Positions 40,597 to 46,353 of a stretch of 64,000 bases of DNA are shown here, in pieces; positions within the stretch are counted from its first letter, which is position 1; each line of letters begins with the position of its first letter. The stretch is taken from NCBI GenBank assembly GCA_028713915.1, contig JAQTNK010000003.1, positions 82,775-146,774 on the forward strand. Direction: 5' to 3'. Made by a program: the position numbers and the translations under genes. This DNA is from Rhodocyclaceae bacterium (GTDB lineage: Bacteria; Pseudomonadota; Gammaproteobacteria; Burkholderiales; Rhodocyclaceae). The notes beneath the pieces were generated by a model. It was not told the origin of the DNA. It did no database searches and worked only from the letters and a program-made list of their open reading frames with translations.

Positions 40597-41979
40597 TCAG
40601 CCGGCGGCCGCGGGATTGCGCCAGCCGCCGAGCTCGCTCATCATGCCGTCGGCCGCGGCCGGGCCCCAGGTGCCCGGCTCGTAGTCGTGCAGCGACGTGT
40701 GCTTGTCCAGAATCGGATCGACGATGCGCCAGGCCGCCTCGACGCCGTCCTCGCGTGCGAACAGCGTCGCGTCGCCTTTCAGGGCGTCGCCGATCAGCCG
40801 CTCATAGGCTTCCATTTCATCGTCTTGCGTGTTGCAGACGTAGAGTTCGATTTCGTCGCCGACGTTTTCGGTGCCGTGCCGTTTCACCCGCGCACCGATG
40901 GCGATGGCAACCTGGCGCGGGCCGAGGCGGAAGCGCACATAGTTGGATTGCGGCGGAATCGTGTCGGGAAACACCTGCTGCGGCGGGCGCCGCAGCGCGA
41001 CGACGACTTCGGTGGCGGTGACCGGCAGCTGCTTGCCGGCGCGGATGAAGAAAGGCACGCCCTGCCAGCGCCAGGAATCCAGGTGAATCTGCATCGCCGC
41101 GAAGGTCTCGACGCGCGAATCCGCGGCGACGCCGGCGTCGCTGCGGTAGCCGCGATATTGCCCCCGCACCAGGCTGCGTCCGGTCAGCGGGCGGATGGCG
41201 CGGAAGACTTTGACCTTCTCGTCGCGCAGCGGCTCGCTGCCGTCGCCGACCGGAGGTTCCATCGCCAGGTTGGCGGCCACCTGCAGCAAGTGGTTCTGGA
41301 CGACGTCGCGAACGGCTCCGACCTCCTCGTAGAAGCCGCCCCTTCCTTCCACGCCGAACGCTTCGGCCATGGTGATCTGGACGCTTTCGACATAATTGCG
41401 GTTCCAGATCGGTTCCAGGAACGAGTTGGCGAAGCGAAAGAAGAGCAGGTTCTGCACCGGCTCCTTGCCCAGGAAATGGTCGATGCGAAAGATCGCGGCT
41501 TCGGTGAATATCCGGTGCAGGGTTCGATTCAGGTGTTGTGCCGAAGCGAGGCTGCGGCCGAACGGCTTTTCCACCACGACGCGGCTCGCCGCAGCGCAGG
41601 GCAGCCTGCCCAAGCCGTCCACCACGGTGGCGAACATGCTCGGCGGAATGGCGAGGTAGAACAGCGGCCGCCGCGCCGTGCCCAGCGCAGCGCCCAGCCG
41701 GTCGAAGGTGGCGGCATCGTTGTAGTCGCCGTCAACAAAGCGCAGCAGGCCGGCAAGCTTGGCGAACGCCGCCGCATCGAAGCCGCCATGCTGTTCCAGG
41801 CTGGCGCGCACGTACGCACGAAGGCGCTCGATATCCCAGCCGCCGCGCGCGATGGCGATGACGGGAACATCGAGATGGCCGCGCCGGATCATCTGCCGCA
41901 GCGCCGGATAAATCTTCTTGGCGGCGAGGTCCCCGGTCGCCCCGAACAGCACCAGCGCATCGGAAGCCGGCGCGCTCAT
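40597..41979 (-). CDS. zwf: Glucose-6-phosphate 1-dehydrogenase
   Basis: Oxidises glucose-6-phosphate with NADP+ (or NAD+). 460 aa from the ATG at 41979. Nucleotide-binding [16 protein letters not shown] at the N-terminus, and the active-site signature [13 protein letters not shown] near residue 165. The track ORF extends upstream through the hairpin repeats and is not native there. Order is gnd, hairpins, zwf, pgl. Confidence 0.95.
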
Positions 41980-42048
41980 GTCATTTGCTCCACCGCGCTG
42001 CGCGCGTCCCGCGACGCACGAAACATTCTGTGTTGGCCAGCGGCGCGC

Positions 42049-42150
42049 GCCCAGGGCAGCGGATGGCCGACTCCGTCCGTGTCCCCTGGGCCGGGCTGCG
42101 CCCGACCCTCCTCCTTTACCTCCCGGAGTCGGCCACCCGCCGCCCTGGGC
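42049..42150 (-). repeat. Hairpin element 1 between gnd and zwf (27-bp stem)
   Basis: Arms 42049-42075 and 42124-42150 are inverted repeats of 27 bp with two mismatches. Both become G-U wobble pairs in minus-strand RNA but A-C mismatches in plus-strand RNA, so the stem is fully paired only in the direction gnd-zwf is transcribed. The 48-nt loop holds TGTCCCC, a small CGGGC-TGC-GCCCG hairpin and CCTCCTCCTTTAC (plus strand). It lies 70 bp before the zwf start. Confidence 0.8.
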
Positions 42151-42198
42151 GACATAGGCCGTCGCTCTTGCGTCCAGCCAAAACCCACACCCGATGCG

Positions 42199-42304
42199 AT
42201 CGGGCGGGCGGGGTGCCCTGCTCCGCGCAAGTAAAGGAGGAGGAGGCGGCCGCCGGCCGCCGACGGGGGACATGGAGCGAAGCAGGGCACCCCGCCGGCC
42301 CGAT
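42199..42304 (+). repeat. Hairpin element 2, related to element 1 in opposite orientation
   Basis: Arms 42199-42222 and 42281-42304 pair over 24 bp with one mismatch. The loop contains GTAAAGGAGGAGG and GGGGACAT, the reverse complements of the loop motifs of element 1 (CCTCCTCCTTTAC and GTGTCCCC), in the mirrored order, while the arm sequences differ. The two elements thus look like inverted copies of one family with conserved loops and diverged but still paired stems. It lies just downstream of the gnd stop. No gene is seen in the rest of the 355-bp gap. Confidence 0.75.
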
Positions 42305-42334: not shown

Positions 42335-43363
42335 TCATTTCAGCACCTTGGACGACGCCTGCTCGGCATGCCCGCCGAACTCGCCGCGCATGGCCGACAG
42401 CAGTTTGTCGCCGAAGCTCCCTTCGCCGCGCGAACGGAACCGGTCGAACAGCGCGGCGCTGAGTACGGGAGCCGGCACCGCCGTATCGATGGCCGCCTTG
42501 AGCGTCCAGCGGCCTTCGCCCGAATCCGCAACGCGGCCCTGAAACGCCGACAGCTCGGCGTCGCGCAGCAGCGCCTGCGCCGTCAGATCCAGCAGCCACG
42601 AGCGGATCACGCTGCCGCGCCGCCAGACTTCCGCGATCTCGCCGAGGTTCAGGTCGTAGCGATAGGCGTCCGCGTCCTCCAGCGGCGCCGTTTCCGCATC
42701 CGCGCTCCAGGCCGCGCTGCCGCTGTTGGCATGGCGCAGGATATTGAAGCCCTCGGCGTACGCCGCCATGATGCCGTACTCGATGCCGTTATGGACCATC
42801 TTGACGAAGTGCCCGGCGCCGTTCCCGCCGCAGTGCAGATAGCCGCGCTCGGCCGCGCTGCCGGCATCATCCCGCCCCGGCGTTCGCGGCGCCGCGGCGA
42901 TGCCGGGCGCGAGCGCGCTGAAGATCGGGTCGAGGCGCTGCACCACCGCTTGCTCGCCGCCGATCATCAGGCAGAAGCCCTGCGCCAAGCCCCAGATGCC
43001 GCCGCTGGTGCCGACGTCGAGGTAATGGATGCCCGCGGACGCCAGCTGCCTGGCGCGCCGCATGTCGTCGCGATAATGGGAATTGCCGCCGTCGATCAGC
43101 ACGTCGTCGCGCTCCAGATGCGGCGCGACAGCGGCGAGAGTCTGCTCCACGGCTGCCGCCGGAACCATCATCCAGACGCTGCGCGGCCGCGCCAGCCTGG
43201 CGACGAAATCCGCCATCGACGCCGAAGCGACCGCGCCCTCGCCGGCAAGCCGCGCCACGGCATCGGCATCGAGATCATGCACGACGCACTGGTGTCCGGC
43301 CTGCATCAAGCGGCGGCACATATTGGCGCCCATTCGTCCCAAGCCGATCATGCCCAGCTGCAT
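42335..43363 (-). CDS. gnd: 6-phosphogluconate dehydrogenase, short decarboxylating type
   Basis: Converts 6-phosphogluconate to ribulose-5-phosphate. 342 aa from the ATG at 43363 (AAAGGAG upstream), the shorter GntZ/YqeC-like class (E. coli Gnd has 468). N-terminal [33 protein letters not shown], and the catalytic [20 protein letters not shown] near residue 175. Members of the short class often prefer NAD+. It follows the fusion gene by 53 bp. Confidence 0.93.
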
Positions 43364-43416
43364 GGCTCGCTCCTTTCTACGCGCCCGCCACGGCATGCGC
43401 GCGGTCGCCGGCACCG

Positions 43417-46353
43417 TTACTCGTCATGGGCAATCTCCATGACTTTGCGTTCGATCGCATGGCGCGAAATTCCGTAGCGTTCGAGCAATTCTTCTTGCGT
43501 GCCGGAACGCGGCTCGTCGGCGATGCCGAGTCGATGGACGGGCGCCACCGCACCGAGCGACGCCACGGCGGCAGCCACCGCGTCGCCCAGGCCGGCGTCG
43601 ATCCAATGGTCCTCGACCACGAACAGCGCCCGCGTTTCCCGCGCCGCCCGTGCCAGCGTGTCGGCGTCGATCGGCTTGACCGAATAGGCGTCGATGACGC
43701 GGGTGACGATGCCTTTGCGCTTCAGGCTGTCGTGGGCGGCCAAGGCCTCGTGCACCGTGATGCCGGCGGCGACGATGGTGAACGCATCCCGCGCCGAGGC
43801 ACGCAAGGTCTTGCTGCCGCCGACCGCGAAGGTTTCGCCATTGTCATAAATCATCGCCATCTTGGGGCGGCTGGTGCGCAGGTACACGATGCCGGAAGTG
43901 CGGGCGGCCACCTCGGTGAGGCGCTCGGCGCTGACCGCGTCGCACGGATAGAGGATGGTGCTGCCGTGCACGGCACGGAACAGCGCCAGGTCTTCCAGGC
44001 CCATTTGCGAAGGGCCGTCCGCGCCGATGGAGACGCCGGCGTGGCTGCCGCAAAACACCAGTTGCGGCGGCCGGCTGTGGCCCGCCATGCGGATGAAATC
44101 GGCGGCGCGGGTGAGGAAGCAGGCGAACGTCGAAACGAACGGCAGCTTGCCGCTTGCCGCCAGCCCGAGCCCGGTGCCGACCATGTTCTGCTCGGCGATG
44201 GCACACTCGAAGAAGCGCTCCGGGTAGGCTTCGGCAAACGCCTGGGCGTGGGTCGATTCCTTGACGTCGCCGTCGAGCGCGACCAATTCGGGAACCAGGC
44301 CGCCCAGCTTCTTCAGGGCGCTGCCGTAGGCTTCGCGCGTGGCGACGGACTGATCCGCCCGGTAGGCCAGCGTCAGGCGCGGGAAGTCCCGCGTGCGCGT
44401 GGCCGCCGCGACCGCACCGACGCGGCGTGGCGCGACGCGGAGCGCGATGTCGGCCGCGCCCAGCTCGGCGTAGGCCTGTTCCATCTGGCTGCGGTCGAGG
44501 GGCTTGCCGTGCCAGCCCAGCGCGCCTTCCAGGAACGACACGCCCTTGCCCTTTTCGGTGCGGGCGATGATCGCGGCCGGGCCGGCCTCGCGGGCCCGCT
44601 GCAGCGCATACAGGATGTCCGCCAGGTCGTGGCCATCGATCTCGAAGGTCTTCCAGCCAAACGACTGGAAGCGGCGCGCGAACACCGCGCCATCATGGGC
44701 GTAGGGCGCGGGGCCGCTCTGCGCGAGGCCGTTCACGTCGACGATGGCGACCAGTCCTGACAGGCGCTGCAGCGATGCGAACTGGGCCGCTTCCCAGACC
44801 GAGCCTTCCGAGCACTCGCCGTCGCCCAGCAGGCAGTACACGCGGGCATCGATGCCGTCCAGGCGGTTGGCCAGGGCGATGCCGTTGGCGGCGGCCAAGC
44901 CTTGCCCGAGGGAGCCGGTGGCGACCCGGACCCAGGGATTGTTGGGCGTCGGATGCCCCTCCAGCGGACTGTCGAGGCGACGCAGCGAGAGCAGGTCGTC
45001 GTCGCCGGCGCCGGCCTCGTGGAGGGCGGCCCACCAGATCGGCGCGGCATGGCCTTTGGAGAGGATGAAGCTATCCACGTTGCGCGCCTTGGGGTCGCCG
45101 GGATCCCAGCGCATTTCCCGGAAGAACAGCGCGGCGACGATGTCTGCGCACGACATGCAGGAGGTGGGATGGCCCGATCCCGCCGCCGTGGTCATGGCGA
45201 TCACCTCGCGGCGCAGCTTGCGCGCCATGAGTTCGAGCGGCTGCGTGTCCCCCGCCGCGCGGTAGCGGTCGCGCTTCCTGTCGATGAGTGCGAGCAGGGC
45301 ATCGTAGGCGTCGATGAACTTCTGGACGCCCTCGTTTTCCAGCTGCGCGGCGACGACGCGCAGATCGATGCCGATCCCTTCCAGTTCCTGCATCACGCGG
45401 CGCGCCGCATCGACGCCCTCGGCCACGGTGTCCGCCACCTCGCCGTGATCGGCGAACGCGGCGATGGTCTCTTCCGGCAGGGTGTTGACCGTGTCGGGCC
45501 CGATCAGCGGCTCGACGTACATGACGTCGCGATAGGTGGGATTCTTCGTGCTGGTGCTCGCCCACAGCACGCGCTGCGGCCGGGCGCCGCGTCGCGCCAG
45601 CGCCTGCCAGCGCTCGCCTGCAAGCAGTTCGCGGAAGCTGCGGTAGGTCAGCTTGGCGTTGGCGATGCCCGCCTTGCCGAGCAACGGCGCGGCCTGCGCC
45701 GTCGGGTAATGGCCGAGCAACTGATCGACCAGCACGTCGATGCGGCTGAGGAAGAAGCTCGCCACCGAGGCGACGTTGTCGATCGCCAGACCGGCTTCCA
45801 GGCGCCGCTCCAGCGCTCGCAGGTAAGCCTGTGCCACCGCCAGGTAGCTGTCGATCGCGAAGAGCAGCGTGATGTTGACATTGATGCCGGCGAACAGCAA
45901 CTCCTCCACGGCTCGCACGCCGGCCGCCGTGCCGGGAATCTTGATGAACAGGTTGGGCCGGTCGACCACCGCGCGCAGGCGGCGCGCTTCAGCGATGGAG
46001 CCTTCCGTGTCGTGGGCGAGATGCGGAGAAACCTCGATGCTGACGAAGCCGTCGCGCCCGCCGGAGCGGTCGAACAGCGGCCGCAGGATGTCGCAGGCCG
46101 CGCGCACGTCGGCAGTGGTCAGCGCCTCGTAGATTTCCGCGGCCGTCCGACCGCCGATCGCGGCGCTGCGGACTTGGTCATCGTAGTCGCGGCTGGTGGA
46201 AATCGCCTTGTGGAAGATCGACGGATTCGACGTGACGCCGCCCAGCCCCTCCTCGCCGACCCGCCGCGCCAGCGCGCCGTCGTTGATCATGCGCCGGGTG
46301 AGGTTGTCGATCCAGTAGCTCTGGCCATGCTCGATGAGATGCGAGGGATTCAT
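43417..46353 (-). CDS. Transaldolase-transketolase fusion protein
   Basis: 978 aa from the ATG at 46353 (MNPSHLIEHGQSYWIDNL). Residues 1 to about 375 are transaldolase, with the Schiff-base lysine at 138 in NLFIKIPGTAAG. Residues about 390-978 are a full transketolase: GSGHPTSCMS, the thiamine diphosphate motif GDGECSEGSVWEAAQF, and catalytic Glu in CAIAEQNMVGTGLGL. Both halves look intact, so one polypeptide can run the whole non-oxidative pentose phosphate branch. The 1087-codon track ORF includes non-native sequence upstream. Confidence 0.94.
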   Translation of the reverse strand: MNPSHLIEHGQSYWIDNLTRRMINDGALARRVGEEGLGGVTSNPSIFHKAISTSRDYDDQVRSAAIGGRTAAEIYEALTTADVRAACDILRPLFDRSGGRDGFVSIEVSPHLAHDTEGSIAEARRLRAVVDRPNLFIKIPGTAAGVRAVEELLFAGINVNITLLFAIDSYLAVAQAYLRALERRLEAGLAIDNVASVASFFLSRIDVLVDQLLGHYPTAQAAPLLGKAGIANAKLTYRSFRELLAGERWQALARRGARPQRVLWASTSTKNPTYRDVMYVEPLIGPDTVNTLPEETIAAFADHGEVADTVAEGVDAARRVMQELEGIGIDLRVVAAQLENEGVQKFIDAYDALLALIDRKRDRYRAAGDTQPLELMARKLRREVIAMTTAAGSGHPTSCMSCADIVAALFFREMRWDPGDPKARNVDSFILSKGHAAPIWWAALHEAGAGDDDLLSLRRLDSPLEGHPTPNNPWVRVATGSLGQGLAAANGIALANRLDGIDARVYCLLGDGECSEGSVWEAAQFASLQRLSGLVAIVDVNGLAQSGPAPYAHDGAVFARRFQSFGWKTFEIDGHDLADILYALQRAREAGPAAIIARTEKGKGVSFLEGALGWHGKPLDRSQMEQAYAELGAADIALRVAPRRVGAVAAATRTRDFPRLTLAYRADQSVATREAYGSALKKLGGLVPELVALDGDVKESTHAQAFAEAYPERFFECAIAEQNMVGTGLGLAASGKLPFVSTFACFLTRAADFIRMAGHSRPPQLVFCGSHAGVSIGADGPSQMGLEDLALFRAVHGSTILYPCDAVSAERLTEVAARTSGIVYLRTSRPKMAMIYDNGETFAVGGSKTLRASARDAFTIVAAGITVHEALAAHDSLKRKGIVTRVIDAYSVKPIDADTLARAARETRALFVVEDHWIDAGLGDAVAAAVASLGAVAPVHRLGIADEPRSGTQEELLERYGISRHAIERKVMEIAHDE

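Follow-up and report, generated by a model that had tools for sequence, protein, structure and literature searches.

The gnd–zwf junction

The window, that is, the whole stretch analysed, comprises 64,000 nucleotides of contig JAQTNK010000003.1 (assembly GCA_028713915.1) from Rhodocyclaceae bacterium. An intergenic region of 355 bp lies between the stop of gnd and the start of zwf and carries two hairpins of approximately 104–106 nt each in inverted orientation, hereafter A and B (elements 1 and 2 of the initial annotation). Coordinates are given in Table 1. The surrounding operon is tal/tkt-gnd-zwf-pgl; a 978-residue open frame upstream of gnd (43417–46353, minus strand) contains transaldolase and transketolase domains and corresponds to a tal-tkt fusion.

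Table 1. Features at the gnd–zwf junction, in window coordinates
Feature	Position	Strand	Remarks
zwf, glucose-6-phosphate dehydrogenase	40597–41979	-	Flanking gene; Pfam
Whole inserted segment	41980–42334		About 355 bp, by comparison with G280, in which the gnd–zwf junction is empty
TCATTT (AAATGA)	41981–41986 and 42335–42340		At the stop/start junction; only suggestive of a short target duplication
Hairpin A (element 1)	42048–42151	-	Outer arms 42048–42075/42124–42151, 28 nt each, 93% complementary
Hairpin A, opposite loop strand	42080–42088	-	CAGGGGACA here; family consensus CGGGGGACA
Hairpin A, variable inner stem-loop	42089–42107	-	
Hairpin A, conserved loop strand	42108–42119	-	GTAAAGGAGGAG, read on the minus strand
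Inter-hairpin spacer	42152–42198		Sequence and length differ from copy to copy
Hairpin B (element 2)	42199–42304	+	Outer arms 42199–42226/42277–42304, 28 nt each, 93% complementary
Hairpin B, conserved loop strand	42231–42242	+	GTAAAGGAGGAG
Hairpin B, variable inner stem-loop	42243–42263	+	
Hairpin B, opposite loop strand	42264–42272	+	CGGGGGACA
gnd, 6-phosphogluconate dehydrogenase	42335–43414	-	Flanking gene; Pfam

Both hairpins had been described in the initial annotation and were recovered here, with arms that are unrelated between A and B, as had been claimed. The extent given for the segment was too short: the insert also includes sequence outside the hairpins, the ends of which are common to some other copies. 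Read along its G-rich strand, each unit consists of an outer arm, GUAAAGGAGGAG, an inner stem-loop, CGGGGGACA and the second outer arm. The G-rich strand is the minus strand (the gnd-to-zwf sense) in A and the plus strand in B, so that the two point outward from the element.

Fold energies were 6.7–10 standard deviations below those of dinucleotide shuffles on both strands. Hairpin A gave −86.9 kcal/mol in the gnd-to-zwf direction and −74.6 kcal/mol in reverse, in agreement with the earlier claim that it gains energy in the former direction only. The motif CTCCTCCTTTAC, allowing at most one mismatch, was found twice in the window (0.10 expected; none of 100 shuffles contained it as often). At E < 0.01 the only covariance-model matches in the window were A (42147–42052, 81.1 bits, E = 1e-16) and B (42203–42300, 68.0 bits, E = 1.3e-13). 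The loop segments 42107–42119 and 42231–42243 are perfectly complementary, as had been noted. Kissing between them, which had been proposed on this ground, was dropped as an explanation, because complementarity follows automatically when the halves are inverted copies.

Copies, insertion sites and spread

A search of the 3.84 Mb genome returned 37 exact loop motifs and a single match for a backwards control; most of the 37 form inverted pairs, with about 125 bp between the members. A covariance model derived from 34 diverse hairpins retrieved 40 hairpins from the same genome. Stem kinds A and B both recur among the copies; the two hairpins, though 'unrelated' to each other, therefore belong together as halves of a single repeated element. 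The gnd–zwf gap holds one copy of this element, a dispersed paired-hairpin repeat that occupies dozens of sites per genome. Almost no weak, decayed matches were present among the model scores, which is unusual for a neutral parasite.

Clusters were oriented '−+' in 90 cases and '+−' in one. Single hairpins showed no preference (13 versus 10). According to gene calls by a simple self-trained caller rather than a curated annotation, 54 of 79 pairs lie between tandem genes, 22 between convergent and three between divergent genes. All 11 tandem copies with clear halves in the genome of the window run from B to A along transcription; in species G274 the order is mixed.

An empty site was identified in G280, in which Zwf is 90% identical, the motif is missing and gnd runs directly into zwf. 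A second was found by comparing L153 with L033. BLAST alignments among copies end at the borders of a core of approximately 265–280 bp, and cores of up to 97.8% identity lie in flanks that are nevertheless unrelated. As far as sequence comparison goes, the element inserts: the empty gnd–zwf junction and the near-identical cores in unrelated flanks show it. In L033 the letters CTGA stand at both sides of the element, a short direct repeat that is only suggestive of target duplication. Some copies in the genome of the window have about 350 bp in common, extending past the hairpins.

Several copies depart from this arrangement. In L154:9606-9660 an A half has lost its entire loop and inner stem and the outer stem is fused, which marks internal deletion as a route of decay. 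L219:1156-1410 (G277 C51) consists of two A hairpins in direct repeat with a period of about 162 bp; its orthologous site in L010 carries a B–A pair at the same gene junction, so the arrangement differs. Copies L197, L198, L207, L208 and L228 of G274 have A and B halves with a common inner stem, GGCGGACAAGAGCGATAAGGCGTCCGCC or close variants, and different outer stems, which suggests that the loop domain was exchanged between halves.

The repeat was present in all five sampled genomes of the same genus, in none of the 44 further genera of the family that were sampled and in 141 of 301 genomes of a related family (0 to 92 matches per genome). A phylum-wide sample gave 11 positive genomes among 399. 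Scanning one genome per species yielded at least 119 stretches, mostly from betaproteobacteria and Xanthomonadaceae; Xanthomonadaceae-like genomes also carry the repeat. The plasmids and phages searched contained no copy, and one of 2.9 million viral contigs was positive. Copy number, patchy distribution and empty sites together back the earlier suggestion of a mobile intergenic repeat family. Four contigs titled Bacillus subtilis SK7B5 (L046, L064, L077 and L105) contain a GC-rich, Xanthomonadaceae-like form of the repeat, and this record is probably mislabelled or contaminated.

Pairing, strand bias and the internal loop

Across 225 hairpins, 85% of positions match when the two arms come from one unit and 41% when they come from different units. 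For the 34 diverse hairpins, picked from those with well-paired arms (240/253), 93.8% of cells were paired (52.1% after shuffling), 388 cells had changed on both sides (117 after shuffling) and covariation was very strong, with a score of 1.008, compared with 0.224 after shuffling and 0.14–0.20 after sliding. The claim that pairing is kept rather than stem sequence is strongly supported by these values.

Exceptions to Watson–Crick pairing are asymmetric. On the G-rich strand, G·U exceeded A·C by 255:31 and 164:7 in the outer stems and by 30:5 and 37:1 in the inner stems, these being counts of hairpins and not of independent events. As A and B are inverted, the bias belongs to the hairpin and not to the locus. 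By the same gene calls, the ratio was 139:6 where the G-rich strand is sense to both neighbours and 124:7 where it is antisense (p = 0.78), and 115:11 between convergent genes. Folding of the G-rich strand is strongly selected, regardless of the direction of the neighbouring genes. The fold is therefore not kept for the host mRNA. Both a zwf switch and cis-acting mRNA elements in general are disfavoured by the equal bias, which points instead to a folded DNA, or an RNA whose synthesis does not depend on the host genes, as what is recognised.

The outer and inner stems are variable and the purine loop between them, GUAAAGGAGGAG/CGGGGGACA, is conserved. Its strands covary in antiparallel register, with A·G/G·A exchanges in eight hairpins, G·G/A–U in five and G–C/A–U in three (again hairpins, not independent events). 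This covariation suggests that the loop, too, has a defined structure, namely that of an internal loop with mostly purine–purine contacts. The motif likened to a ribosome-binding site is present as described and is one strand of this internal loop, covarying with the other. A two-quartet G-quadruplex (GGNGG on both strands) was also considered, and is weakened by the replacement of G·G by A–U in five hairpins, because this breaks the G tracts.

Relation to known repeats and possible mode of spread

In REP families, palindromic units form inverted dimers, and the stem and loop of one half need not match those of the other (PMC3733652). Such dimers between genes, a REP/REPIN trait, occur here (the '−+' clusters above), and like REP, BIME and REPIN sequences the repeat is intergenic, chromosomal, present in many copies and located near gene 3' ends. 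However, REP units measure 20–40 bp, whereas those described here measure about 100 nt with 28 bp outer arms. The conserved part of a REP is its GTAG/CGTC foot tag; here it is the internal loop, with no conserved foot letters. REPs and REPINs go with a RAYT, but no RAYT was found in this genome or adjoining the copies. The defining features of a REP fail, and the repeat is not a REP.

MITEs and NEMIS/Correia-type elements share with it a non-autonomous, dispersed nature, an inverted structure and empty sites in relatives. Unlike them, it is devoid of a conserved terminal inverted repeat, its terminal arms being the most variable part; no parental transposon was found and target duplication is suggestive only. 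RIME1 of Rhizobium, known from rhizobia, is likewise an intergenic element of two large palindromes.

The Beta-proteobacterial repeat element (BRE) is an intergenic, chromosomal sequence of about 90 bp, scattered in betaproteobacteria and suspected to be mobile; it was found by sequence identity and reported as co-oriented tandem VNTR copies (PMC3110155). Judged by that description, the present repeat appears to differ in its inverted pairs and hypervariable arms. The nearest kind is paired palindromic intergenic repeats, with REP (PMC3733652) and BRE (PMC3110155) as the nearest descriptions.

Searches of Rfam above curated thresholds, covering the window region and 144 kb of carriers, returned only an unrelated glycine riboswitch. 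In open-licence papers the motif string occurred only in unrelated texts, with no bacterial repeat context. The repeat looks undescribed in the open literature searched. It is a large structured family of well-studied bacteria that is missing from Rfam; annotation pipelines would take such gaps for empty sequence or spurious ORFs. If only structure and about 20 loop letters define the repeat, the greater part of its distribution would escape a conventional sequence search. Because its halves are inverted and so present both strands, the repeat also contains its own control for distinguishing selection on host mRNA from selection on folded DNA; it further poses a testable question, namely which protein recognises the G-rich hairpin.

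On balance, we regard the repeat as a non-autonomous REPIN/MITE-like element, each half of which would be recognised as a folded single strand by a putative trans-acting factor. When the halves become single-stranded, the G-rich strand of each would fold. This strand with its purine internal loop would form the putative recognition site for a DNA-processing factor acting in trans, and recognition would lead to copying or insertion of the element at gene ends and stop/start junctions. Movement would be analogous to that of REPINs by RAYT transposases, but by another enzyme. The gnd–zwf copy would be a passenger of the operon, any effect on expression perhaps being secondary.

A functional structured RNA is less probable, and we consider it unlikely. 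The G-rich hairpin would act in transcripts as a 3'-end stabiliser, an RNase III site or a protein-binding hairpin, and the inverted pair would allow a transcript from either side to end with it. The strand-specific wobble pairs and loop covariation are indeed RNA-like, copies adjoin gene 3' ends and avoid divergent promoters (3/79 pairs), the G-rich hairpin comes last for transcripts from either side in every '−+' pair, and decayed copies are few. However, the asymmetry is equally strong in hairpins with a G-rich strand running antisense to the genes on either side, single hairpins are without orientation preference and no sigma-70-type promoter match was found in the element.

Still less likely, the repeat is left over from the end or the interior of a larger autonomous transposon. 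Paired inverted ends, decay by internal deletion and the extensions past the hairpins (about 350 bp in common) in some copies of this genome would fit such an origin, but a long version with a transposase between the halves was not found: within 3 kb of the copies examined there is no autonomous relative sharing these ends, and two wider pairs contain no transposase. In the first (C21, 24.8/31.7 kb) the interval is occupied by an operon of the phenylacetate type and the partners are decayed; in the second (G948 C46) it holds a cluster of Sel1-repeat genes. Both were rejected as autonomous versions.

We give little credence to an origin without selection on structure, in which quasi-palindrome template switching uses one arm to correct its partner. 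Template switching of this kind acts on long arms that pair almost perfectly, and it would keep the pairing while the sequence drifts. It predicts equal numbers of G·T and A·C, against the observed ratios of about 8:1 to 23:1; moreover, the biases of A and B sit on opposite strands of one locus, and the conserved loop and its covariation are left unexplained. A switch or attenuator RNA dedicated to pentose-phosphate genes or, as the initial annotation had envisaged, to zwf has the position between gnd and zwf, the proximity of hairpin A to the zwf start, the SD-like loop and the very stable gnd-to-zwf fold in its favour, but is highly improbable, since the same element adjoins many unrelated gene pairs, a relative with 90% identical Zwf is without it, no Rfam family matches and the structure is independent of gene direction, the strand-specific fold being equal when antisense.

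For the mobile-repeat reading that we prefer, a mobilising enzyme was sought. The RAYT domain Y1_Tnp (PF01797) had no match in the genome of the window, and elsewhere its occurrence was inconsistent, the domain being missing in several searched carriers and present in some genomes without elements. The loci of the best Y1 genes did not contain this loop motif. An association with RAYT was rejected on these three results. No recurrent transposase was found within 3 kb of the copies examined. Some ssDNA transposons show replication-strand bias; for single hairpins in the closed genome G950, counted over all matches with GC skew, the ratios were 3:7 and 5:6 (p = 0.66), which shows no such bias. 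Tentatively, and with considerable doubt, the repeat could represent a new class of mobile repeat that a non-RAYT enzyme moves and whose ends are recognised, in folded single-stranded form, by way of a purine–purine internal loop between freely variable helices.

Two further observations were made at these loci. In L300:1783-6584 (G948 C46), two hairpins that face outward enclose a gene cluster of about 4.8 kb with low GC3, one gene of which has Sel1 repeats; two copies may have carried it between them as an island, or the arrangement is due to chance. On either side of Y1-transposase genes in relatives (L182:1108 and 1918; L183:1127 and 1923) stands an inverted motif of a different kind, GTGGTCTGTCCCC, which looks like a separate RAYT-type repeat.
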